From: Polytrichum commune | Lineage: Eukaryota; Streptophyta; Polytrichopsida; Polytrichales; Polytrichaceae | Reading direction: 5' to 3' | DNA length: 64,000 bases | Assembly (NCBI GenBank): GCA_950295325.1 | Contig: OX485805.1 | Location: forward strand, 6,200,501 to 6,264,500 | Shown here: positions 1 to 42,958 of the stretch, piece by piece | Layout: each line of letters begins with the position of its first letter | Numbering within the stretch: the stretch's first letter is position 1 | Notes under the pieces: generated by a model | Seen by the model: only the letters and a program-made list of their open reading frames with translations | Database searches by the model: none | What the model was told of the DNA's origin: nothing | Program-made: the position numbers and the translations under genes

Positions 1-1905
1 CAGCTGGCCCAATTAATGTCCCCGTCGGCTAGGATGAGTGCGTACTCTGGTATTAGGGCGCTCAACTCCCTCATTGCAGCAGTCTTCAGCTTGCGGTGTT
101 CGCACCATTCCTTGATGGAATACGTGCCGGGCTTGTGTCTTGGCCTCTTCAAAAATATCTTCGGGTATGGGATGGTTCTTCCCACTGTGTTCCCAAGAAG
201 ATGCACCGCGCACCTCTGCAACTCGGACTCTGTTAACCCTTGAAGGGACCTGAAGAACTCCCTTAATAGTGGAGGGGCCTCCCCGGTCTTCTCCGCGCTG
301 TACTTCTCCTCGGTGTCGGGGTTGACCAGATCGCCCGAGCTGTGCGCATCAAAAAATTGTGTCCACAACTCCCAAGTGTCCCTGTTGCAACAGATGAGGC
401 GGAGCTCACCCTTGAGCTCCAGGACAGACTTGGTTGTTGTAGACTTCATGTCGATGGAGGAGAACTTGTCCACCATCGCGTCGCAGAATGCCTGCAGCAA
501 GAAAGACATCAGTAACGCACAAAATACGAACGCACGTTCGTAAGTTTGAATGTCAAAGAACTTGAAATTTTGAATGTCAAAGATATTTACGAACATTCGT
601 TCATAAACTCACCTTCCATTGTAGAGACGGCGTCTTCGCGTTATCCCTTTCTTTAGGGGGGCACCCGTGGGCGACCCAGACGTCCCTTGCAGCCACTATG
701 TTGGCTGCCCACGACGCCTCGAAGGCCTTGATCTTGTTGCCGGAGTTGAGGAAGGTGGATATCTTCCGCAGCTTGTCCCAATCGTCCGACCACACCAAGA
801 ACGCCTTCCAGTAGCGCAAGTCCTCCTTCAGCTCATGCTGGAAGTTGTCATCCTTGAGAATTATCTGGGACGCCTCCAAGCTGTGTTGGCCGTCTATAAT
901 CCAGAACTCTCCATTCTGGATCCGTGGCCAGTCCTTCTCCGTCGGACGGGATGTTAGCCCTTTCGGCATGACGCAGACGGTCTGCCTGTCCCACTTGACG
1001 TTGTTCATTAGATTATTTATCTGCCACTTCACACCACCGCTTTCACGAGAGCAAACCATCCATTTGTTGGGGGACATCTCGCACTTGAAGCAGTCCATGT
1101 TGAATGTGAAGTGGCGTCCCATGGGCCAGCAATCATTCGAGTAGTTGTTGAAGTCTCGAAGGATCCTCATGGCCTTCACAGCGTCAGGGTTCTCACCCTT
1201 TTTCAAGGGGGTGGGCATTACGACAGGCGAGGTCACCTCTGCGGTCTTCGTTACTCCCGATTTCTCCATCTCCTCCCTTGTCCTCTTCGATGGCGTGGAG
1301 TGTCTACTGGGGCCCTCCGTCGCCCTGCTAGCGGAAGGCACAGGCCTGGGTGCACTTCTAGATCCTCCTGCCCCTGATGTGGATGGTTTCCTGGGGCTCT
1401 TCTTCTTGTTTGCCTCAGTGACCACACTGTTGTATTTGGAGATGTTCAATGCAAGGGCGGTCAATTTCCTTGCCGTCCAGTATGGGCTTAACGCATATTT
1501 GGAGAAGAGGCCGTCCAGGTCGAAGTGCTTGGCATCTTCCGCTACGTTATTGGTGACGTATTGGTAGGAGAAGGTATTTTTCTGAAAATGCAACAAGAGG
1601 TTGATATGATCCTTCTTGTTCTTCATGTCCAGAATTACATACTCCCCCTGGGCCTCTATGGACTCTATCTCCCACGTCTTCATTTGAACCCACTGTTCGG
1701 GCTGGTCCGGTCTTGTCTCCAGCTCGTAGGTGAAGCGCATGCAAAAGAGGCCGTCCCCGATCTTCTCTGGCAGTGCCGTCCACTCCCCCATGAAGTCTTC
1801 CTTGGGGACATAGTTATCGTTGCCGTTATCGTCTAACACCGACTCTGGGAGGCCATCGACCTTCACCGCGAACATCTCAATGGCGCTTATGCTTGATCTT
1901 GCCAT
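1..1905 (-). CDS. ParB/DGQHR-like nuclear protein, two exons, 3' end outside window
   Basis: Exon 1905-613 (431 codons) and exon 491-1 are joined by a 121-bp intron (492-612) with donor AAG|GTGAGT and acceptor TTGCTGCAG|GC. The second exon stays open for 163 codons in the correct phase and runs off the window. ATG 1905 lies directly after TTGCAG, so it may follow a 5' UTR intron or be internal to a longer protein. An upstream in-frame ATG at 1965 would translate through a palindromic repeat and was not preferred. Residues 1-175 are an unrecognised N-terminal domain. About 180-250 is a K/R/S/P-rich linker with KKKSPRKP and SKRTREE, possible nuclear localisation signals. About residue 335-342 reads IIDGQH followed by SLEAS, like the IIDGQHR of ParB/DndB-type DGQHR proteins, though R is replaced by S. 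Known relatives bind or cut DNA. The role here is inferred. Confidence 0.72.
492..612 (-). other. Phase-0 intron containing two palindromes
   Basis: The GTGAGT donor and TGCTGCAG acceptor are canonical. Both flanking exons remain open and in phase after removal. At 121 bp, over a third of the intron is made of two copies of the palindrome (523-544 and 586-607). Confidence 0.75.
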
Positions 1906-2516
1906 CTGCAACAGAATATAAACAATTAGTGACTTTACGAACGAACGTTCGTAAGTGACATGCATATCCCACAGACAACGCAGTGTTAATGCGTCTTTGC
2001 AATTGATGTAATTATATTTACGGACGTTCGTTCGTAAATGAGGGGTTGCAAGAACATATAATTTTTTAGTATTGAGTTTACGAACGAGCGTTCGTAAAAG
2101 ATATGAAGATCAAAGAGACTAGTCGTCATGATTGTGTTTGTAATATATTTGGTTATTTTTACGAACGATCGTTTGTAAAAGATATTGGTTTTATAGATTT
2201 GGATTCATTTACGAACGTGCGTTCGTAAATATGTCCATTTGGTCTATCTTTTCGGACATTTGGTTGATTTATCTTTCGTAAGTACATGTGATTTGTCTTA
2301 TTGGTGTTCGCAAAATTATATTTGTTCTTTAGATATTCATAGAGGTTCATATTAAAGTTAAGGTTCCTTCTGAGTGATATTTTGAGTATATTTACGAACG
2401 TGCGTTCGTAAATATAGATCATTTCAAAGAACGTGGAGTGCGTATTTACGAACGCACGTTCGTAAATGGAGGTTCGGTATGCAGTGTATGTCCATTTACG
2501 AACGAGCGTTCGTAAA
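523..2516. repeat. Palindrome cluster 1: 10 copies
   Basis: Each site has left arm TTTACGAACG, two variable bases, then the inverse complement arm. Copies lie at 523-544, 586-607, 1934-1955, 2017-2038, 2077-2098, 2158-2179, 2208-2229, 2391-2412, 2445-2466 and 2495-2516. Central pairs are CA, TT, AA, TT, AG, AT, TG, TG, CA and AG. No copy lies in the coding exon 613-1905. Two are in the intron and eight are upstream of the gene. Flanking sequence differs between copies, so the palindrome itself is the conserved unit. Confidence 0.95.
1906..2516 (-). promoter_or_regulatory. Palindrome-dense upstream region of the ParB-like gene
   Basis: The 611 bases upstream of ATG 1905 contain eight 22-bp palindromes, making up about 29 percent of the region. 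A pyrimidine-rich TATATTCTGTTGCAG just before the ATG looks like a splice acceptor. I cannot place a TATA box or start site. That the palindromes act as binding sites for one of the two flanking gene products is an inference from their position. Confidence 0.4.
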
Positions 2517-4801
2517 TGTGATGGTTTTGGGATCCCCTGTCCGTACATATATGTATTCGTATATATACGAATACATATACATATACATATGTATATGTAT
2601 ATAACTCACTTATTAGCTACTCTACTTGCAGCCGTGCCTGCAAAATTTTGGTCAGAATGATGCAAATCTTCAATCATAAAGCAATTGAGATGCAGAATGA
2701 GATGCAGAATGAAACATGAAGAAGAGAGTGATAATTCACATTGCATGTAACAAAAGAAATTGAATTCAAGAAGCAACATTTTCAGAATGTGAGAGGAGTT
2801 GGAAAGGATAACAAATTACATTGAAATGCTGCACACTTCAAACCCTGCTTCTTCTCTTTCTGAAAATCCCAGAAATCCTCACAACTGCACACTCAATTGC
2901 CTTTCAAATGCACACTCAGATAACTCTCTAATACAGACCTCAAGCCTTCACAGCTTATATACAAACCCTAGTATACTCCTATGTACACAAAACTCACAAC
3001 CTTGTAGCTCTCAAGCTTCTGAACTCTTAAGCAAACCCTTAACTCTCAAGCTTTCCTAAACTCTCAAGCTTCCCTAAACTCTCAAGCTTCAACTCTGAAG
3101 CTTCCTTAAACTCTGAAGCTTCTAAAGATCACCCTCAAGCTCTCAATCCGAAACTCTGAAGTTTTCCTACTCAAGCTCTCAAGCTTTTGAAACTCACAAA
3201 CTCTCACACTGAAAGCTTTCACAAACTCACAAGCTTTCACAATGAAAGCTTTCACAAACTCAAAAGCTTTCACACAAGCTCTCAATCTGAAATCTCTCAA
3301 AACTTGCAACAAAACTAATTTAAAACTTCAAGACTAAAAAAAGCAAGAGCTTCGCTCTCTAAGCGCTCCGCTCCTCCTCTCCTCGAAATGACAAATGAGG
3401 AGAAGAGGAAGGGGCGCGGGGAGGTAAGTGCGCCGCTAGGGTTTCCCAGCACCTGCCACGTGGCACAACTCCACTGGCTAGGGCTGGGAGGGAGATGGGA
3501 TGGGATGGTATGGGAGGTGATGGGAAGGGATGGGATGGGATGGGATGCGATGGGAGATGGGAGATGGTTGTATATTGGAACCCTTCATGTTATTCTCATG
3601 CTTTGACATATTTATATGTAATGGACGCGTTTAGGGCATTAACTTGAAAAGCTTAGTTCAAATACATGAATTTTACTCGTTTTATTTCCTTAGTACCTCT
3701 ACATTTGGATTCCTTGTAAACATATTTTAGGAAAATATGCTCAGTTAATTCGTAATAAACAATGCATGTCATTTCCTAGGTTGTCAATGTAGAATCCACC
3801 CCCAAAGATATGTATATGGTGTTTTATCTTACCAACCTTTCTTATATGTGGCCATGTTGTTTTCTGAGGGCAGGTCAAATTGGTCTACCAATGTTGGTTG
3901 GATGGAGAATGTTTAATTCCGTTCATAACAACTATAATAATTGATAATGATGCCAATTGTCATTTTCACATTCCAAATTAATAGATTTGAGATAAAACTT
4001 TGGTTTAGGTGATAAGTGAAATTTCAAATATTCCCACTTTCACCTTAATAGTTATGAGTGAAATTTCATCACACAATCCACGATCTTATTATAATAACAT
4101 GCATGTCTTAAGACTTCAATTTATATCAACACTTTAAGCTATGATGATGCACATCCTTCTCATAGGATGCAAAACATATATTAATTGTAAATACATACTA
4201 TTGTATGCACCATTCCAAATTAATAGTGCATTTCCCCAAACCCTAAAAGTCTATTTCCAATAGGACCTCAACTCATTTAATCATGTGTCAACTTAAACTA
4301 ACAATCGAACAATGCATTCAACTATAAATATCACTAATGATCTAATAAATATTTAACCAATGTGTATCCGTACCCTTATAACAAGTGGACGAAAATTCAA
4401 TTTCCAATAGGACGTCAAACACATAATAATTGTAACTATGATTCAACGTTACGGTAGCTAGTATGGTTTCAAGTCTCAATGATCATTACGCTATCATACT
4501 ATACAGCATTACAAATTGATTAATCCTTCCTACTCATGCCATTTTAATTCCTTATTTTCACACCTAGATACCATTTGAAAGAAGACCTAACTTACATATA
4601 TTATTAGGTATAATTAGTTCATAGTGTCCTCAATCTACCATAGTGCAAGCCATTATGGATTAACCCGATTTTTTAGTTGTATTCATGCACTTGGTGACCA
4701 TATTACGGTCATTTTTTGATGTGAAACATATGATACCTATAATTTTAGGGGCGTCCGCAACATGTTTCTTAGCCACTCTGACCTCATTGTGTGTGTGTGT
4801 A

Positions 4802-4842
<41 letters not shown>

Positions 4843-5367
4843 ATGACTTCGACATTCATAACTTTATTAGGCATCAATTGTCAATTAACTTGGACTTCAT
4901 ACCTTAGTCGCAAATCATTAAATATTCAATGTTAACCATCTCCATATTTAGACATTATGTGTATATATATATATATATGTATATACATATATTTCGATGA
5001 GACCTTGGTCACAACTAAGGTGTGCAACCGATTTATATATTTTCAATATGTTGGCGTGCATGCAAGGCATGTTCCATACATGACAGTGCTATTTATATAA
5101 TTCCGCATGGATGGAATGGGAGATTGTTAGGTCAAAGAAGGCGGCGGGAATCCGCTTTTTAAAGAGCATCCAAGGGATTTTGAACCAGCGGGGTAAAGTA
5201 CTTAAAGCTCTTCCCCCCACAACAAAGCTCTTTTCAGCGGCACATGCAAGTGTGCGCTCTACAGACCTCACCGAACGCGCTCAAGCCATTTGGTGTGCGC
5301 CAACCCTACACCACCCAGGTACAGTACAGGCTGTACCTACCGCATATACCGCCGTAAATACCGGAAC
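2517..5367. other. AT-rich insert-like stretch between palindrome clusters, no gene recognised
   Basis: It lacks palindromes although both flanks are dense in them, so it may be an insertion. It holds an AT-rich palindromic run (2545-2602), a degenerate CTCTCAAGCTTC-type repeat (about 3000-3300), a GGGAT-type run (about 3485-3565), a GT/TA microsatellite (about 4789-4841) and a shorter TA run (about 4962-4990). The short ORFs here are low-complexity or accidental. No terminal repeats were found. Confidence 0.5.
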
Positions 5368-6620
5368 TTTATGAACGCACGTTCGTAAAGATGAAGAGCT
5401 TCAGGTTTAGACAAACAATTCGGACCTGGACATGGCAAAGATTTACGAACGCGCGTTCGTAAATTCCACATGAAAGCATGTTCTGGATTGAGCTACTCAT
5501 ATGGATAGTCACATGCACGTAATCCATCTCAGTTATTTACGAATGTGCGTTCGTAAATATGCCTTCGAGGACCATGCAGACATATTTGACCCTTATCTAT
5601 TGGTACCTGATGGTCGGTAATTTACGAACGTGCGTTCGTAAATCCCACCTGAGAGCATGCTTTGGATTGAGCTACTCATGGATAGTCACATGCACATAAT
5701 CCATGGCAATTATTTACGAACGTGCGTTCGTAAATATGCCTTCGAGGATCATACATACATATTTGACCCGTATCTATTGGTACCTGATGGTCGGTAATTT
5801 TACGAATGTGCGTTCGTAAGTCCCACAAGAGATCATGTTTTGGATTGAGCTACTCATGGATAGTCACATGCACATCATCCATGGCATTTATTTACGAACG
5901 TGCGTTCGTAAATATGCCTTCGAGGTTCATACATACATATTTGACCCTTGTCTATTGGTACCTGATGGTCGGTAATTTACGAACGTGCGTTCGGAAATCC
6001 CACATGAGAGCATGTTCTGGATTGAGGTACTCATATGGTTAGTCACATGCACTTAATCCATGACAGTCATTTACGAACGTGCGTTCGTAAATATGCCTTT
6101 GAGGATCATACATACTTATTTGACCCGTATCTATTGGTACCTGATGGTCGGGAATTTACGAACATTCGTTCGTAAATACATGTCATTATTGTCTACGCAT
6201 CCAGCAACACATCTTCATTCATGCACATCAGTATGGCAGTAATTTACGAACACAGAATAACAAGAAAAATATGCTCATCGCTCGTCCGTGAAGGATGTGA
6301 ACACGGGGTCGCACCCATTTACGAACGTCCGTTCGTAAATGGGTAGGTACGCAAAAGTCAACATAATCAAATTCACAATATGGAGGTGCTCAGTGTTCAA
6401 AATATTGTTGGAGTTGATTCAGGCATCATCTGCAGATTTGCTAATTTTGTGCGTATGGACAAGTGTTCTCTTGTGATAGTATACCGCGCAGGTTCCTAAG
6501 TCAAGATGGTACTTTGACCTACAAAACCGATATTCCTCAGGGTGCTCTCATTTGAGGGATCTCGAAGGCCGCCGGATGTACATGGAGAAGTTACTGAGGT
6601 CATGAACGCGCGTTCGTAAA
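5368..6620. repeat. Palindrome cluster 2: 12 copies
   Basis: Full sites lie at 5368-5389, 5442-5463, 5536-5557, 5621-5642, 5713-5734, 5799-5820, 5891-5912, 5976-5997, 6070-6091, 6155-6176, 6318-6339 and 6599-6620. Central pairs are CA, CG, then TG seven times, TT, TC and CG. Half-sites occur at about 6243-6252 and 6788-6800. The outermost arms of 6599-6620 are degraded. The cluster ends about 320 bp before the start chosen for the DUF7869-type gene. Confidence 0.95.
5442..6176. repeat. Tandem array of about 178 bp, two palindromes per unit
   Basis: Palindrome starts are spaced 94, 85, 92, 86, 92, 85, 94 and 85 bp. Two spacers alternate. The longer contains ATTGAG..TACTCAT..TAGTCACATGCAC and the shorter contains TATGCCTT..GAGG..TTTGACCC and TGGTACCTGATGGTCGG. 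About four units are present. The array is therefore a satellite-like dimer whose two halves share only the palindrome. Confidence 0.9.
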
Positions 6621-6942
6621 TGCATGTGGCGTTCTCGGATTTCTGATTTCGTCGTCGGTTGTATGGGGACAGGCGCTGGTCCGAACAGCAGGGCCCTCCT
6701 GGACGACTAACGAGTGTTCTCCTCTTTGTCCATGTATTGTTTACATTAGTGAACAACCTAGATGTATGCTTAAAACGTTTTTTTGGTACGCGCGTTCGTC
6801 TTTGTGCGTGAGGTTCTCCAATGGTGCACCAAAATTTGTTTGTCAATTTTGGACCATTTATCTCCACATATATTCTATCCTCTCTTATATGCATTGCGGT
6901 GGTGGTTGGGTTGATCATTTCTTGGTGGTTGGTCTAGGCTGT

Positions 6943-9871
6943 ATGGCGTTGCATGTGGGTGATAGTTCATTGGAGTTGTCGACGTATGCATCGTCATCCG
7001 ATGCTGAATGTGAACTGTCTTCCCCGTCGGCAGATAGTAATGGTGTGCCAAATGTAAGGGGGGTGTTTGTGGATACATCCTCCCATGAATCTTTGGAAGT
7101 CCACGAACAATCTCTGCATTCCGGAGATGACCACGATGACATTCCGTTGTGTGCCGGTTTCGGGAGGGAGCAATGGGTTGGCCTTGATGTCGTTCTACTC
7201 AACGAGGTTGGTGTCCCGGTGGCAGATGGCATATGTAGAAACTCCAATCCCCGTGATTGTGTCGATGCCAACGCCCTAGGTCTCGATGATGTTGGCGTGT
7301 GCATCTTGAACTCTTTGCTTCCGGTAGAGGTCCTGGTGACATGGAGATTTTCCTTGCGTCGATGGCCGCTTCGTCAAGTTCTACATGAGGAAGTGAGTTT
7401 GTGGGATCATGAGCGGCGGCATAAGCAAACACAATTAGCTTTGTTGGCCACAACACGTCCTCGCAAAGGCCTCCGTAGATATGATTCAAACCGTGTGCCT
7501 CGCGGAGATAAGGAACGTCGACGGGATCGGCTTTTGGGGGACGAATCTATCCGTCTAGTGTCTGGCAAGGATTGTTGCGCGAGGAAATGTTGCCAATTTT
7601 TCCCGCGGGAGAAAATTAGATCTCTGCGTCAAGAGATGTGGCTTGCGGATTTTCGTATGAGGTCGGCTAAGAAACTCGAGGTCCACAGAAATTTGCACCT
7701 TGATACCCATGGGCATAAGGTGGTGACACTTGAGAATGTTGATGTGTGTTGTATAGCGTGGTATACCATCCACGCCGTCTCCAAGGCTGACTTTTATAGG
7801 TTTCAAAAGTATTCATCGTTGGGTCGCCGCTCTCGATTTCATGGCAACTCGGGCACAAAGAAACCTAGGGAGGCTACACTGCAAGCGTACGCGACACTAT
7901 CCACCATCATAGTGCCATTGGCCGATGCAATGCCCCACAAGACGAGGACATTGTCGTCAGGGGAGAAGGTTGTTCAAATGGTGTTGCCCACGGGCACAAA
8001 ATGGAAGAACATCTTAACGGACATCAATGAAGTGGGTCGCATAGCGGGATGTGGGCCCATTTCTTTGTCCAAGTTGAGTGTGATTAAAAACCAGCAGTTT
8101 GCGGAATACATTCTGAAAAGACCCGGGGACAAGTTCGCTAGATGTACGACGTGTGAAAAATACAAAGGTCTTCGAGACGCCCACCCCATAGGCACTGAAT
8201 CTCATTCCAGACACCAGAAAAAATATATTGAACATGTCAACAATCAAGAGGCACACCGTCAAGATTATTATAAGAATCGTGCTCTATCCATAATGAGGCC
8301 CAAAGAGGTTCTAACAGTCATCCATGATAAAATGGACCACGCCAAAACCGCATGCCCTTGTTATGCACGCAAAATAAAGGCCACGGATGGTCTCTTCAAG
8401 TTGCCCGTAGCTGTCACAGGTTTGTATGAAATCACAACTACGTGTTTAAAGTCTATCCAATTTTCTTGGGTGTGTTTGGCAAATGTCCAACTCCATACAT
8501 CCGTTTAGTGGTTATTTGATTATTTTGGTCACGCATCGTTTGTTTTTTCCAGGTATGATTGCCCATGGCCATGGGGACGTAAAGTATGCCCATTATGGTT
8601 TGGATTTTTACCCTGGGGATGCTAACCACACGGTGGGTTCATTTGCAAAACTGTTGCGCGATCTTGAGAAACCACCGGTACATTCTTCCCGTGCACTTTT
8701 TGATGGTTGTGGAACCACATCCCTTTATGAGGCAGTGCTTGCGGGGAAGGAGGTTTGTATGTCGTCATTGCCAAAACCACCCGGAGAGCCCATTTGTGCA
8801 AAACCATTGCCTCCAACTCTCCACGTTCAACTTGATAATTGTACGAAGGACAACAAATGTCGATACGTATTTTGTTTTTGGTCATTGCTCGTGGCGAAAG
8901 GAATCTTCAAGGAGGTGTTTGTGTCTTTCTTGATGGTGGGACATACACACAACGACATTGATGCATCATTCGGACGGTGGAGCATGAAGTTGCATGAAGA
9001 AGATTTTCCAACCATACCTCTTCTTATGAAATCGTATATGGATTTGGACCATATGCCAGTAATTCCGCACTTGATTGAGGATGTATCAGATTTCAAGGCC
9101 TTCATCAAGCCATACATGTTGAAGGGAGGGGACCATTTGGTGGGACATACCAAAGCACAGCAATTCCGATTTTATATGAGGGACGATGGTCTCCCGGCCA
9201 TGCAATTCAAGCTTTTGTGCACATCTCCTAATTGGGGCCCGGATGATGGTATACTCGTATGGCGTCAAGACAATGATGGGAAATGTTTGGTCCCGGATGG
9301 GGAACCAAAGCCTTGCAAACCCGAACCCATGAGGAATGGGCCGGAAATCATCAAAGGCATATCCGGATTCATTGAATATTGGAAAAAGTTGTGCGAGGAG
9401 GACATCACAAGACGTGTTAGAGATACCCATGAACCGTTGATCGCGTATTGGGATCGCATTCGCTCAGCCTTGATGACACTTGGTGGCGACACCCGTACGA
9501 CTTTGACACAAGGATTTTGGCCACAAAGTCGTTTGACGGTTGTCGAGTCCGATACTATGTTTTTCAGCAATGGAGACGTTCGTAAAGAGTTCGCAATGGA
9601 CGAGCATTACGTTGGCCCTGCCCGCAATCGACCGGCACCGTTGTTTCGTGTAGGTGTTGATTGCCATGAAGGGTATTTGGTCCTCGTACGAGCAGGGGAT
9701 GAGGAGCATCCCAAGCCAATTTGGTTGGTAAAAGCATTGTCTTCACCCAATTTTGTTCGAACTAGCCCCAACTTTCGTCAAATTGAGGTGGAATATTGCC
9801 GTCCAAGCACTAAAGACCACAACGTGCTCCGCACTTATTTAGGTTGGGACACCAAAAAGAATTTTAAGTGA
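6943..9871 (+). CDS. DUF7869-type putative transposase, two exons
   Basis: Exons 6943-8419 and 8553-9871 are joined by a 133-bp intron with donor CACAG|GTTTGT and acceptor TTTTTTCCAG. Splicing keeps the frame and gives 931 codons up to TGA 9869-9871. ATG 6943 has G at +4 and begins a plausible acidic N-terminus. The same frame opens earlier at 6766, but that stretch is not protein-like. A CC..CC cluster lies near residue 211 (KDCCARKCC) and CTTCEK near 400. HDKMDH lies near 461, LDNC..KDNK near 590 and GHTHNDIDASFGR near 622-634. This motif order matches plant and animal proteins annotated DUF7869, usually regarded as mobile-element proteins. The three Asp-containing blocks could be an RNase H-like metal site, which is inference. 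The gene is divergent from the ParB-like gene. Confidence 0.75.
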
Positions 9872-10072
9872 ACAGTGGACTCAGCGTACACACCGGTTTG
9901 GATAAACACGGATATTATACTTTGTGCTTGGAAGCCGCGCAAAGGTTCCAACACAGAAGCAATGACCATCCCCCAAAAACATATAGATTTTGCCAAAGAC
10001 AACTTGGCACGTATTGCAGCTGCGGAAAATGACGCCGAGAATGGATATGAAGCGGAAGATGGAGATGGGTAA
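9872..10072 (+). pseudogene. In-frame 3' continuation of the DUF7869-type gene after TGA
   Basis: Directly after the TGA the same frame stays open for 66 codons to TAA. It reads like the rest of the protein, with ILCAWKPRKGS, IDFAKDNLARIAAAEN and an acidic end. The most likely reading is that TGA 9869-9871 is a recent nonsense mutation that removed the natural C-terminus. Stop readthrough would be the alternative. No splice sites remove the stop. Confidence 0.6.
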
Positions 10073-10732
10073 ACATAACATAGGTGAAAGTTAACGGCGG
10101 GAAAAAACATTAGTGCTTAGTAGTCTTGGTTTTTAATAGACTTAGTAGACTTGTCACACTCAATTGTGGTATACGTTTGGGATGTGCCATCCAAAACCAT
10201 GAGAACCTTACTTATGGGATGCGCACCCCAAACTCTATAATGACATAAACCATTTGTTTTTTAGATTCGCTTGTTATTTTCCACATGGAGTTCACGTTTT
10301 TATTATAATTGCAATTTTCTATTTTTAGTATTAGGAATATTCTTTACGTGCGAATTTTAAAATTGTCATGTTCTTGATGTTCCCAACATTCCATATGCCC
10401 ACAATATTGGCATCCCAAACTATGGGCATATTTTATTTTGAGACTTTCAAAAGTCTCCGATTAACGAATATAGTGTTCATAACTAAAGGAGGGAAAATAA
10501 CCACCGTAATCCTTCTTGGCATGGGAAGGCTAACAATACTAAAGGAGGGAAGGTAACCACCATAATCCTTCTTGGCATAGGAAGGCTAATGGCGAACCTT
10601 CTTGGCATGGGAGGGCTAATGACAAATCTACTTGGCACGGGAAGACTAAGGGTGAGATGGCGAGCTAATATCCTAATTGGCAAGTTCTAGTCAACAAAGT
10701 GGTGACCTGGACAAAACCTAAACAATAGAGTG
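10073..10732. other. Downstream AT-rich spacer with a short degenerate repeat
   Basis: No gene was seen. From about 10484 to 10670, three to four degenerate copies of a GGAGGGAA..CTTCTTGGCATGGGAAGGCTAA unit occur. The right end of any element carrying the two left-arm genes should lie here or beyond, but I found no terminal inverted repeat. Confidence 0.5.
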
Positions 10733-13700
10733 TGTCAGTCCATCAACGAAGGTCTTGATTCTAGGAGCAAGGCCCATTGGGTTGGTCACATTACTCTCTT
10801 CGCATGCATATGAGAGTCCCAAGGTTGTCATTGCAGATATCTCAAAGGAGCGCTTGCAGGTTGCTGACAATCTGGGCACCAACGCCACCATGCAACTATC
10901 AACCTCAAAAACTGTGAGTGATTTCTAAATGTTGAATTCTAAGTGATAAAAGACATGGTCCAATTCAATGTTTCTACTTCAAATTTTATAATAGGTAAGT
11001 CTTAAGAAATATTTAGGGTCTTGTACATTCATTTTCAAAATAAATAAAGTTTATTCCAAGAATGTCAATGAAATATACAAAATATCCCATGAATGTGCGA
11101 ATTGCTTTTGGTAATTCATATCTCTACAAGGGAGTCATGACCATCAACCCACAGGCCTAATGTATGGCATAATTTCACACGCTGGTGTATTGCCAAATGG
11201 AGGTCTTGCCAAAACCTGGAGCAACCTGTCAATGTGGGTGATGATGAAGTGTTGCTCCCATGTCCTTGGAGAGATGTGTTGTTCAAAAACCTGGAATTGC
11301 ATTCCTGAACTGTTTGTGAAGATGCGATTTCTCTGTGGTCCAAGGAACAAAAGGCCATACATGTCTAAAAACCTCTGTTAATAGGTATGAAAAAAGAATG
11401 ACGGTAAATCTATCATATGTCACAGTCTGAGAAGCCCCATTCAAGAAGATAAGCCACATCTTGCATCTTCAGCTAGAGATTGATTGCAGTGTTGTGAAGA
11501 TATGATTTCTCTTACACTCCAGAAATGAAGGGTCAGATCTGAAATCCTTGTTAATAGGTCCTTGGAAAACAACCATGGAATACCCTCCCATGTGTCACAG
11601 TTTCCGAACTTGCCCCAACGTTGTAAATCATAAGTTACATTTTTGCATCTTTTCTTAAAGAGACTACCTAATTTCTTGATGGAACATTTTGCAGGATGCA
11701 GATTCCGAGGTGCTTGGATTGCAAAAGGCCATGGGACAAGACATCAATTAACCAAGAGCATGAAGACCACTTTGAAAGCTATGCACTCTGGTGGACGAGT
11801 CTGTCTCATTGGCAAGGTCCATAATGAAATGACATCTCCCCTTACACCTGCCGCTGCACTGTTGGGTTTTGTAAACCCTTTCAGTTAAAATTCTTGGTGC
11901 AGTGGACATTCAAAGGCTCTTTATAGTTCCTCTTTAATCAAACCCAATAACAGGGTCTGGTGGTTCTTAGATTGCTCTTATACTATGCGTCCTTGTATCT
12001 TTTGTTCCTATAAATTACTAACGTTTCATGTAATCAGGATGCCCTCCTGACCAGAGTTTGGGAAGTTTTTGAAGCCTTAGTGGCTAATTGCCGGTAGTTG
12101 CTACGAAGGGTCGGATTTTTTCCAATTTACATCAGCAAGAGCCGGTCTTTTGTAAAATCAATCGGCCAATTGCCTATATTTTCATATTTTCATTGGCCAA
12201 TATCCGATTAAATGGAATTCATATCGGCACTAATTGTTTAGAAAATGTATGAAAAGTTATTAGAAATCATTTCTTAGTACAAAATCTTGAATAAGTGAAA
12301 AGAAAGGCATGTTCAAAACTTTAAATTTGAAGAGTTAATATCCTTGGCAGGATTTGAACCTAGCAATGTCTTCACCACTTGAAGGCCAAGGGTCCCCCAA
12401 TTCTTCACAGAAGCAAGTGGATTTGGTCATGAAAAGGTTGCATAATTCAAAAAGTTTGAGGTTAAGGGTACTTCCTCAAGTGCATCATCAGATGCCCCAA
12501 ACAAATAGCGCTCTGGATGCTTCCGGTTGAAATCCAGTAACTCACAAGAAGAATCGACTACATTTCCGGGACATTTTATGGTCCATCGGATAATTGCCGG
12601 AGGATTGAAATTACAATCGGATTGCCATCCGATGGTTGGAAATTTGGACCGGCCATGAGGGGAAATCCATTGGCTGATAATGAACTAGCCGTCGGTTTTC
12701 CCCGAACATAGCTCCTGACTAACATTACATCTCGCTGACATGTAATGTTAGTCAACGTGACCTCACATCCTGCTCATTAGATTTACAATCAGGCGCTTGA
12801 AAAGAACCCCTGATCTTGTATAGAAAGTATCTCAATTTCTAATGTGATGCATTTACCTCATTGCTCGATGTCCTGGTGTTCATGTAGCCTAAAATACAGT
12901 CATAAATTCGCTCATAAGTACAGGCCTAATTGTGTAAATAATTAAGGCAATAGCAAAACTGAAATTTAAGTAAAGATAGGAAATTGCATCTAAGATATGT
13001 AGATAGTGCACCTTACCTTGTAGCTTGGTCAAATATTGATCAGGATAGGAGAACGGGCTCAAATTCATGTTGACACATTGAACATTGATCTCGGGGGGGG
13101 GGGGGGTAGTCATTGGTTGGAGTAGCAATATACGTGCGAACAAATGATAGGGTATTTTAAAAACATGGGAGCTAAAAATTATAAATCGACTTAAGAGTAA
13201 TATAGGGTATCAAAAATGACATTGGACATCTTTAAAGTACTATAGGGTATGGAATAATAGGTACTTTGGAATTATAAGTAATGCAAGCCATTTTTCTATT
13301 AACCCAAAGTAGAAATTTACATAATGATAGCATGTGAAAAAAAGAAGAGAATTGAAAGTAATACCCCCCTATAAAATAGTGGTTGTTCGCACCTATATCC
13401 TTAAATTTTTAACACACTGCCCCCCCCCCCCCCCGAGACATTGATGTTCCTTTTCTTTTCTTTTCTTGTAAATAATGCATCTGAGAATAGTGTTTGTGAT
13501 GTTGACACGTGCACATTGCACAATACAATATTTGGAAAAAGGTAAATAGAAAGTTATGCTGGAAGCCCTAATTATAAATACTTTTAGAAGAAATGTGGTC
13601 GAAACACTGCTCTAGATGTGTACTTTTCACAAATAACACCATGTAAATACAACCAAAACGTATTTACAACATGAGATGTAGTCCACATCTAAGGCTAGTT

Positions 13701-29576: not shown

Positions 29577-29810
29577 AACTGGTGAGATTAGCTGCTGGAA
29601 CCCAGTTGCGACTGGTGAGATCAGCTGCTGGAGCAAGCTGCGACTGGTGAGATTAGTTGCTGGAGCAAGCTGCGACTGGGTGAGATTAGCTGCTGGAACC
29701 CAGCTGCGACTCGTGAGATTAGCTGCTAGAGCAAGCTGCGACAGGGTGAGATTAGCGGCTGGAGCAAGCTGCGACTGGGTGAGATTAGCTGCTGGGACCC
29801 GGGGTAACCA
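29577..29810 (+). repeat. Minisatellite in LTR A, about 7 units of 33 bp
   Basis: The unit is GGTGAGATTAGCTGCTGGAG then CAAGCTGCGACT. Units start near 29580, 29613, 29646, 29679, 29712, 29744 and 29778. As 33 bp is 11 codons, it stays open in one frame, but no start context suggests translation. Confidence 0.9.
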
Positions 29811-32156: not shown

Positions 32157-33391
32157 TGTGAGGCCAAACCACCACCCCTTAAGCGTCCTAGTCCGGGTGA
32201 GGGAATGGGTATCACATTCGTGTTTCCATATTACTCCATTTTACCAAATTCGTGAGACTCCATTACAATTCCATCAATCATAGCACACCAATCCATCATC
32301 ACAATCATAAAGCCCTCCTAGCTTGCTAATGAACTAAGTATTTAAACTAACATGAAGTAATAACCTAATTACTTCACTATCTCTAAGCCTAAGGTAGCAC
32401 CATGGTCCCCTCTAATCCTCTACCTAACTACAATTGTAAGCCTCGACTATATCAGTTAGGACCTTGGAATGCGACCATATAAGCTCTTGGACTGCAATTG
32501 TCTCAGCCTCGATGGTAATACGCAAGGCCCTGGACTGCACCGTATAAGGCCCCTGGACTGCAACTGTCTCAGCCTTGATGGTAACCAGCAAGGCCCTTGA
32601 CCTTACTGCACCTATATAAACCCTTGGACTGCCACTGTTTCAGCCTCGATGGTAACCAGCAAGGCCCTGGACTGCACCGTATAAGGCCCCTAGACTGCAA
32701 CTGTCTAAGCCTCGAAGGTGACCAGCAATGCCCTTGAACTGAACCTGTATAACCCCCTTGGGCTGCAACTGTCTCAGCCTCGATGTAACCAGCAAGGCCC
32801 TGGACTGCACTGTATAAGGCCCCTGGACTGCAACTGTCTTAGCCTCGATGTAACCAGCAAGGCCCTAGAACTGCACCTGTATAAGCCCTTGGACTGCCAC
32901 TATCTCAGCCTCGATGGTAACCAGCAAGGCCATGGAACTGCACCTGTATAAGCCCTTGGACTGCCATTGTCTCAGCCTCGATGGTAACCAGCAAGGCCCT
33001 GGAACTGCACATGTATAAGCCCTTGGACTGCACCGTATAAGACCCCTAGACTGCAACTGTCTCAGCCTCGATGGTAACCAGCAAGGCCCTTGAATTGCAC
33101 CTGTATAAACCCTTGGACTGCCACTGTCTCAGCCTCGATGGTAACCAGCAAGGCCCTAGAACTGCACCTGTATAAGCCCTTGGACTGCACCGTATAAGGC
33201 CCCTAGACTGCAACTGTCTAAGCCTCGAAGTAACCAGCAAGGCCCTGGAATTGAACTCAGCCTAAACCTTCTCAACTATCTACCTAATCCTACCCAACCC
33301 ACTACCTAATTACTTCTAAACAAGCCCACTAATTATACTAACACTTACCTAATTCCCACATTCTCTAAGAGCTCTAAGACTCCCAAAGTCC

Positions 33392-39149: not shown

Positions 39150-39475
39150 GGGCAGACCAAGGCTTAGCCTCAACCGAAATCACCCAGTCTCGCAGCTCCA
39201 GCGCTTAGCCTCAGCCGAAATCCCATAGTCCAGCAGACCAGGGCTTAGCCTCAACCGAATTCACCCCAGTCCCGCAGCTCCAGGGCTTAGCCTCAACCGA
39301 AACCACCACAGTCCAACAGACCAGGGCTTAGCCTCAACCGAAATCCCATAGTCCGCAGCTCCAAGGCTTAGCCTCAACCGAAACCACCACAGTCCAGCAG
39401 ACCAGGGCTTAGCCTCAACCGAAATCCCACAGTCCGCAGCTCCAGGGCTTAGCCTCAACCCAGGCTCAATCGAGC
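39150..39475 (-). repeat. Minisatellite in LTR C, 8 units of about 40 bp
   Basis: Plus-strand unit GGGCTTAGCCTCAACCGAAA with alternating spacers (CCCATAGTCCGCAGCTCCA or CACCACAGTCCAGCAGACCA). Anchors fall near 39163, 39206, 39243, 39286, 39326, 39367, 39407 and 39447. Confidence 0.9.
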
Positions 39476-41644: not shown

Positions 41645-42354
41645 CAAACTGTGAGCCCAAAATGGTGCCCACATGTGGTGATTAACTCTTCGAAACCAAT
41701 TTTAGTTTGACTTTGATGTGTTATGACTATTCACAAAACATAAAAAGAGTGAAGTGTGGTGTGGATTTGAGTTTAGGCATTAGAATGTGTTGTGTAGTTA
41801 TTTCAAGGTTTGATTTCAATAAGAGGATGCCTTGATTATGTGAGTAAAGGGTAAGGTGAGGCAAGGTGAGCTCTGCGGGTTAAATGCCCACTTTTGGATC
41901 CACCTTGATAGTTTAGGAAGAAGGAAGCTTGGTGGAAGGGGATTAGTCCCTACTTTGAAGGTGAAGGTTAAGGGATTGTGATTGGAGGTGCTAATCCTCC
42001 CACCCTATCCTCACCTCTCTCTCCCTCTCTCCCTCTCTCCCTCTTTGCTACTTAAGGTGTTCTTTCTCTCATTTGCAACTCTCTCCATCAAGCGCTCTCA
42101 AGGGGAGCAAGCTCTTAAAGAGCTTGAGCACGTGTGTGTGACATTAGTTTTTAGTAGAGTTGATTAATTAAGCTCTCTCTCAAGGCCCCAAGTGAGGGAG
42201 CTCTTGAGCTTAAGGTTGCATGTAGTGATTAGGTGTTAGTTATTTAAAGTAGTGTGTTAGATTAGCGCATGACTTAGCATCAAAAGAAAGAAAAGAGAGG
42301 AAGAATTAGAACCTTGATGATGGGATGGGAGAGGTTGTATTAAGGGTAGCCAAG

Positions 42355-42755
42355 ACTAAGGTGAGGAGCGACTGTTGGAGGGATTCGGCTGGGCCTAAGG
42401 CCAACCAGCTTAGCTGCTGGACTAAGGTGAGGAGCGACTACTGGAGGGATTCGGCTGGGCCTAAGGCCAACCAACTTAGTTGCTGGACTAAGGTGAGGAG
42501 CGACTGCTGGAGGGATTCGGCTGGGCCTAAGGCCAACCAGCTTAGCTGCTGGACTAAGGTGAGGATTTAACTGCTGGAGGGATTCGGCTGGACCTAAGGC
42601 CAACCAGCTTAGCTGCTGGACTAAGGTGAGGATTTACCTGCTGGAGGGATTCGGCTGGGCCTAAGGCCTCACCCGCTTAGCTACTGGACTAAGGTGAGGA
42701 GCGACTGCTGGAGGGATTCGGCTAGGGCCTAAGGCCTAAGAAGCTTGGCTGCGGG
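42355..42755 (+). repeat. Minisatellite in LTR B, 6 units of 66 bp
   Basis: The unit is GACTAAGGTGAGGAGCGACT, GCTGGAGGGATTCGGCTGGG and CCTAAGGCCAACCAGCTTAG plus a short linker. Units start near 42355, 42420, 42486, 42552, 42618 and 42686. As 66 is a multiple of three, frames stay open on both strands. These are repeat artefacts, not genes. Confidence 0.92.
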
Positions 42756-42958
42756 AAGATAATTTGGCTTGGGCCTAAGTATTTCATTACCTCTAATTAG
42801 TCAAACTACTAGGGGGGTTGTAGTTAGGATAATCCTTTTAGGATTGATAGACCATGATAGATTATTGCATGCCATCTTGGCTTTAGGTAGAGTTGGATTT
42901 ACTAGGAAAGTAGAAGTGTGTGGGACTTTCAAATGTGTGGATGGTTACCCATTGAAGC

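Follow-up and report, generated by a model that had tools for sequence, protein, structure and literature searches.

The 64,000-nucleotide stretch of the Polytrichum commune genome analysed here (contig OX485805.1, positions 6,200,501 to 6,264,500, hereafter the window) begins inside a 15,786-bp DNA transposon, and the 22-bp palindromes that recur between positions 523 and 6620 are internal parts of that transposon. The element carries two divergent genes, termed gene 1 and gene 2, the second of which encodes a DUF7869 protein that is the probable transposase. Our preferred reading, with a probability of roughly 60%, is that a dimeric protein made by the transposon, most likely that of gene 1, binds at the palindromes, and that these serve in self-recognition and probably in anti-silencing. 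Palindromes of the same layout and other sequence occur in other DUF7869 families of this genome, and these family-private palindromes look like a self-recognition code by which elements find themselves. We infer from sequence that the binder is most likely gene 1, rather than gene 2 or a host factor, and that a dimeric state and an anti-silencing outcome are likewise most likely.

Allowing up to three mismatches to TTTACGAACG-NN-CGTTCGTAAA, 22 sites were found at 523-6620 (11 perfect, seven with one mismatch, two with two, and two with three) and none in the rest of the 64-kb window; 100 shuffles gave a chance expectation of 0. The initial annotation had reported these 22 palindromes with varying central dinucleotides, and both the number and the centres were confirmed. 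The set is complete within the window, but not for the transposon: a 10-kb stretch to the left (L005, whose last base is coordinate 0) adds seven sites from -2846 to -854, for a total of 29 in the window copy. Of the 29, the region upstream of gene 1 holds eight and that upstream of gene 2 holds 12; four fall in the two gene-1 coding introns, three past the gene-1 stop codon, and two overlap gene-1 exon 3. Lone single arms exist too, such as a perfect arm at 9577 within gene 2. The flanks had been described as unrelated, which stands for the left cluster (cluster 1, 1934-2516) and the intron sites, but not for the array upstream of gene 2 (cluster 2), where a tandem repeat at 5441-6177 (179-bp unit, 4.1 copies) holds nine sites.

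The profile of the sites was taken from 272 sites with up to five mismatches in 17 stretches, seven of which are near-identical copies. Each of the 10 arm positions carried 1.1-1.9 bits of information, lowest at the outermost position and due in part to site selection; the centre carried 0.2-0.3 bits, with all 16 dinucleotides present, and the flanks at most 0.2 bits past the first base. A free centre within a two-fold symmetric site fits a dimeric DNA-binding protein, as the initial annotation had suggested. Its other option, a recombining protein, did not survive. Inverted arms around a 2-bp centre do resemble the core sites at which site-specific recombinases, serine recombinases among them, act, but a recombinase exchanging at the central dinucleotide needs matching centres, and here the centres vary between sites within one element. 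No recombinase family was matched among the element proteins scanned, and the element has terminal inverted repeats (TIRs) and 4-bp target site duplications (TSDs), so that we regard a recombinase as extremely improbable.

Comparison with three other places on contig C1 revealed sharp transposon borders at -5308 and 10477. The left and right ends both open with AACACTATATTCG, and a right end was located at 29 of 30 gene-2 loci. Seven of eight elements checked were flanked by a 4-bp TSD of no fixed sequence (CATA in the window copy, TATG in the element e640, and CATG, ACTA, CTCT, ATAC, and TCAT elsewhere); the one failure was the left/right pair L063/L022, which showed no 4-bp TSD. TIRs together with a short TSD in several copies make this a DNA transposon. 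Element e640 is a 9,497-bp derivative that has TIRs, a TSD, and 42 sites; it gave no gene-1 match and matched gene 2 over the first 46 codons only. A copy that keeps its sites without gene 1, as e640 does, would need service in trans. As a separate observation, the L063 and L066 elements (C5:2.35 and 2.59 Mb) have 14 left-flank bases in common and differ in their right flanks, as a recombinant or a local duplication might.

At up to three mismatches, isolated single arms aside, the outer 2.5 kb on the left and 3.9 kb on the right of the element are free of sites. Because the sites keep this distance from both ends, they are unlikely to be end-recognition sites, and subterminal transposase sites were rejected as the leading explanation. 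The site-free ends also speak against the broader proposal that the gene-2 transposase binds the palindromes to assemble or regulate the transposition complex, like the subterminal repeats of other DNA transposons. This proposal, which we consider unlikely, draws on the retention of sites by the e640 derivative and on the presence of gene 2 in every family examined, the families having been found via gene 2; the divergence of the two genes, given below, also counts against it.

The genome searched comprised 408 Mb in 64 contigs, seven of which account for ~406 Mb. A search for the arm pair with any centre, as the initial annotation had proposed, returned 2,909 perfect sites, and a reversed control pattern returned 0. 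Among the first 86 distinct perfect sites listed, 79 lay in elements verified by sequence or by the presence of both genes: 26 in e640, 20 in e2270, 17 in e2460, and 16 at C1:2.534 Mb, a locus that appears in the lists of both genes. The other seven, outside the checked set, were five sites at C1:2.236 Mb with the same two-cluster layout and two single sites. On these 79 of 86 sites a satellite, which would form long head-to-tail arrays outside elements, was rejected. The initial annotation had asked whether sites occur only beside the two flanking genes, and this held in part: most listed sites do lie in checked elements, but e640 has lost gene 1 or never had it and still holds sites, which therefore go with the element and not always with the genes. 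The lists for the two genes are lower bounds (best 97 of 1,774 candidates for gene 2 and best 93 of 1,091 for gene 1). Among the 93 and 97 places listed, at least 60 divergent pairs of gene 1 and gene 2 were 3-15 kb apart (median 8.3 kb), and no pair had another orientation (random placing, mean 0.11). An origin from viruses was rejected: two pattern-based scans of viral contigs turned up no gene-1 or gene-2 relative, and perfect sites were absent there.

Private binding sites would mean that each further family carries a palindrome of another sequence, and this prediction was tested. A genome search with the PF25273 profile (best 150 of 1,490 candidates) gave DUF7869 copies with varied open-frame lengths, and we named families by gene-2 open-frame class: F540, to which the window copy belongs, F502, F692, F539, and F677. 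One copy was taken from each of the 502-, 692-, 539-, and 677-codon classes, and in all four the upstream 2 kb held an array with the same two-fold layout, with three new palindrome sequences. The F502 stretch contained 12 copies of GTTTGGGTCG-NN-CGACCCAAAC in a 78-bp tandem; F692 and F677 had one palindrome, CCCACGGGTG-NN-CACCCGTGGG, in six and five copies with partly 47-bp spacing; and F539 had six copies of TTTACGGACG-NN-CGTCCGTAAA with no more than one mismatch in the arms, partly in a 97-bp tandem. The F539 and F540 palindromes differ by the same change in both arms. A fifth stretch (L074) adjoins a DUF7869 copy with one of the top scores and has five units of 59 bp that carry the imperfect palindrome GGTGAGGCATATGCCCCACC, an array of the form GGTGAGGCA-TA-TGCCCCACC. 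Upstream arrays were present in 5/5 stretches fetched for the family test. By one fixed criterion, the top count of a same palindrome per 2 kb was 4-12 in the five family stretches and two window stretches, and at most 1 in all 28 control stretches from the window and L005 and in all eight gene-2 stretches. Genome-wide, perfect sites numbered 9,231 for F502, 644 for F692/F677, and 1,147 for F539, with 0 for each reversed-pattern control, and many dinucleotides occur at the F502 centre.

These arrays bear on whether the elements have gathered enhancers or insulators to which a host factor binds. The clustering of sites in introns and upstream of genes would suit such a factor, but a single one hardly accounts for arrays that differ among related families within one genome, and 79 of the first 86 listed sites fall in checked elements; we hold this explanation to be very unlikely.

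Gene-1 homologues were found in three families with different palindromes, F540, F502, and F692. An intact F502 homologue (L072), 4-6 kb from the F502 array of L050, is 36% identical over exon 1; a second copy, at the edge of L011 and surrounded by F502 palindromes, is 23% identical in its N-terminal part. In F692, the spacing of the sites listed genome-wide pointed to introns ~15 kb away from gene 2, and the stretch fetched at this predicted place (L073) has an open frame of 482 aa that matches gene 1 (24% over 140 aa, E 1e-8 versus one locus) and contains the motif VVNGQHTLAAC. This homologue lies in a stretch dotted with F692 sites and may belong to one element with that gene 2. Divergent within-family pairs 3-15 kb apart numbered at least 60 in F540 and 42 in F502 (from hand-picked rows), and cross-family pairs numbered 0. 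Between F540 and F502, the palindrome arms have 5 of 10 bases in common, and gene-2 exon 2 is still 65% identical while gene-1 exon 1 is 36% identical, which is the divergence that tells against binding by the transposase. Three families with different palindromes thus have diverged gene-1 homologues, too few for statistics on joint change of motif and protein.

Conservation was compared by aligning the window with six related stretches. Summed over these, identical positions amounted to 892/1,073 in arms, 2,998/5,297 in flanks, and 59/106 in centres; arms are conserved between subfamilies, and centres and flanks are not. The core palindrome was unchanged in the related subfamilies sampled (L057-L062). 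Nine elements in both gene lists were 84-86% identical to the window copy in gene 1 and 94-95% in gene 2, among the matches listed.

Several results weigh against binding by a gene-1 protein. MAFFT may align on the sites and so inflate arm identity, but centres within these aligned sites behave like flanks. Close relatives showed little contrast between arms and flanks (177/180 versus 1,011/1,072, and 139/140 versus 636/646). The contrast among eight recent copies was weak too, arms having changed a little less often than other noncoding DNA, with changes at 25 of 1,880 arm positions, 246 of 11,486 other noncoding positions, and 372 of 20,813 coding positions, and 10 of 12 changes at CpG positions of their sites were of the deamination type. 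In the main subfamily, gene 1 (96-98%) is no less conserved than gene 2 (~97%) among the matches listed. Centres are less free in two families, with AA, TT, and AT only in F692 and CG, CA, and TG only in F539, among the matches listed, and one F502 gene pair has another orientation. No gene-1 match was found in 6.5 kb upstream of one F539 gene 2, where the stretch runs into an F502-type element; the stretch fetched for an F539 gene 1 (L056) contains part of an F502-type element, judging by its palindromes and its NIF gene. The first 5.9 kb examined at F692 also gave no match, and the view that F692 lacks gene 1 was overturned by the homologue ~15 kb from a gene 2. The gene-1 protein had no match over the curated cut-off in Pfam or NCBIfam, nothing under E 0.05 in PHROGs, and nothing under E 0.2 in the PDB, so that any DNA-binding fold is putative. 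Lastly, symmetric changes in both arms exceeded independence at position 2 (12 versus 2.7), which binding alone does not explain; an excess in small numbers was also seen at positions 3, 6, 8, and 9, in copies that are not independent. Such double changes may come from tandem copying, template switching, or a need for symmetry.

The symmetric changes and the weak constraint among recent copies, together with the partly tandem structure of cluster 2 and of other arrays fetched, are what one would expect if the palindromes were a by-product, spread by tandem duplication and kept symmetric by template switching in quasi-palindromes with no bound protein. Four observations count against this: the flanks of cluster-1 and intron sites are unrelated; in corresponding places the arms stay the same as centre and flanks diverge; several families share the layout but differ in arm sequence; and two sites overlap a gene-1 coding exon. 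We find an unbound by-product quite unlikely.

In the binding interpretation that we prefer, a gene-1 dimer would read two 10-bp half-sites across the 2-bp spacer. The many sites, upstream of both genes, in gene-1 introns, and in part of the coding sequence, would mark the element's own DNA, and the mark would most likely keep or make that DNA accessible, with anti-silencing and activation of both genes. This would operate in cis, and in trans for non-autonomous relatives, while an own protein and an own palindrome for each family would prevent cross-activation between families. A comparable arrangement is found in Spm/En, which has in TnpA a further transposon protein whose cognate motif is present many times and which is reported to relieve methylation; the multiplicity of motifs is alike, but those of Spm are subterminal whereas both ends here are site-free.

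Sequence-specific transposon anti-silencing has been described for the Arabidopsis VANDAL elements, which are MULE-type (PMC5735166, PMC10398659). As in the VANC system described there, the moss transposon carries a non-transposase gene and dense family-specific arrays of a short motif, in introns and upstream of genes, that have spread via tandem repeats; the introns of VANC and VANB and the region upstream of VANA hold the VANC arrays (PMC5735166). VANC motifs and proteins differ between families, and so do the palindrome arrays here, which occupy noncoding parts of the element with 2 of 29 sites overlapping a coding exon. We propose anti-silencing because array placement, tandem growth, and family specificity repeat these published features. 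The two systems differ in that the DUF7869 transposon, with its TIRs and 4-bp TSD, is unrelated to VANDAL; the VANC motif is 9 bp long and arrayed in one orientation whereas ours is a 22-bp palindrome with a 2-bp centre; and gene 1, unlike VANC, has a [DN]GQH motif. The element may work like VANC without being a VANC member, its probable transposase being a DUF7869 protein and not Mutator-like; Pfam scans of the element proteins gave no MULE transposase and no named gene-1 domain over cut-off.

The gene-1 motif is DGQHS in F540 and F502 and NGQHT in F692. As a lead, it recalls the DGQHR proteins of the ParB/Srx fold (PMC4619093), the final R of which is not kept; the antisilencer VirB is among the relatives with this fold (PMC10770331). 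Features shared with ParB-parS and VirB-virS (PMC10770331, PMC12704722) would be an antisilencer and, close to divergent genes, its loading sites; our case differs in that no helix-turn-helix was found and the setting is a eukaryotic transposon. Searches of Pfam, NCBIfam, and the PDB returned no significant ParB/DGQHR match for gene 1, and the sole computed ParB-like match was PHROG 1033 with the F692 homologue (E 0.17). Eukaryotic members appear in a survey of the ParB fold from 2025 ('eukaryot' occurs 14 times), but transposons do not, with 'transpos' occurring 0 times in its main text (PMC12704722). We offer as a doubtful extension that a eukaryotic transposon superfamily might carry a ParB-like system of loading sites. 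Dimers of [DN]GQH gene-1 proteins would load at the palindromes of their own family, spread from there over the element, and displace silent chromatin, much as VirB, a relative of ParB, counteracts H-NS in bacteria. Joint divergence of protein and palindrome would have given one genome four or five codes at least, each exclusive of the others, and with them a natural set of orthogonal protein-DNA pairs. A further parallel is the presence of TET/JBP genes in fungal DNA transposons (PMC12730594), where a probable anti-silencing gene also travels aboard a DNA transposon; TET/JBP is an enzyme, and the abstract of that study mentions no private DNA motif arrays.

Searches of the open-licence PMC literature yielded no paper that, judged by title or abstract opening, deals with the palindrome motif or DUF7869, and the domain name DUF7869 had no occurrence in the library searched. 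An unrelated transposon seems to arrive at a VANDAL-like design, although its protein is another one and its target, being a long palindrome, is cleaner; a single genome reveals thousands of sites together with candidate proteins and several family codes. Should gene 1 bind its palindrome, the families would offer a direct test of joint change of a selfish protein and its target as well as a supply of orthogonal DNA-binding pairs, and a biology would be assigned to DUF7869 elements.

Table 1. Features of the window copy of the transposon. Negative positions lie in L005, to the left of the window.
Feature	Position	Strand	Remarks
Transposon, part within the window	1..10477	.	Starts at -5308 in L005 with AACACTATATTCGG; ends at 10477 with ...CGAATATAGTGTT; CATA on both sides
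Right terminal inverted repeat	10449..10477	.	Outer 13 bases equal the left end, imperfect beyond
Gene 1 coding exon 1, 431 codons, motif FWIIDGQHSLEAS	613..1905	-	Splice sites by eye
Gene 1 exon 2, first part	1..491	-	Runs on to -834 in L005
Gene 1 exon 3	about -2424 to -976	-	In L005
Gene 2 exon 1	6943..8419	+	Start codon chosen by inspection
Gene 2 exon 2, DUF7869 (PF25273, E 1.5e-40), probable transposase	8553..9871	+	Profile match
Two palindromes, 523-544 and 586-607	523..607	.	Intron between gene-1 coding exons 1 and 2
Site cluster 1, eight palindromes (1934, 2017, 2077, 2158, 2208, 2391, 2445, 2495)	1934..2516	.	Upstream of gene-1 start codon
Site cluster 2, 12 palindromes, 5368 to 6620	5368..6620	.	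Upstream of gene 2
Degenerate second copy of gene-1 3' end	6279..6713	.	66% identical to L005:7200-7656
NIF-like phosphatase gene (PF03031)	-3795 to -3010		Pfam match

Splice sites of the element genes were placed by eye. Gene 1, on the minus strand, has three coding exons and encodes 1,355 aa; its exon 3 gave a sub-threshold HAUS-augmin3 match (19.2 bits, cut-off 29.4). The DUF7869 protein is a probable transposase by its place, its copy number, and its invariant residues DNCxKDNK and GHTHxDxDA, and a PDB search with it gave nothing of note. Gene 2 of the window has a stop at 9869 and a 473-aa open frame, compared with 540 aa in many other listed copies, and this copy may be inactive. The decayed copy of the gene-1 3' end carries palindromes and sits between cluster 2 and gene 2, and the right array may derive from a duplication of the left part. 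NIF/FCP1-like phosphatase genes occur both in the F540 element (L005 6205-6990) and in the stretch with F502-type palindromes (L056 2432-3286).

Other repeats were also observed. A different perfect 22-bp palindrome, GTATTCGTATATATACGAATAC, lies beside cluster 1 at 2553-2574; e2270, e2460, and the related L060 and L062 contain it as well, in exact or almost exact form, and it is perhaps a promoter part. Another repeat, with palindromes GGACTTCCATNNATGGAAGTCC and GGCGCTGTCCCGGGACAGCGCC ~475 bp apart, was found in and around two element copies (L006, L007, L010, L011). Beyond the right end of the transposon, by 245 bp, a weak ADH_zinc_N (zinc-binding dehydrogenase) match at 10722-10925 (E 0.0026, under the curated cut-off) suggests that the insertion may sit in or beside such a gene. 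Farther along the window are minisatellite-like tandem repeats at 29578-29795 (33-bp unit), 32465-33253 (66-67 bp), 39152-39460 (41 bp), and 42354-42756 (66 bp).

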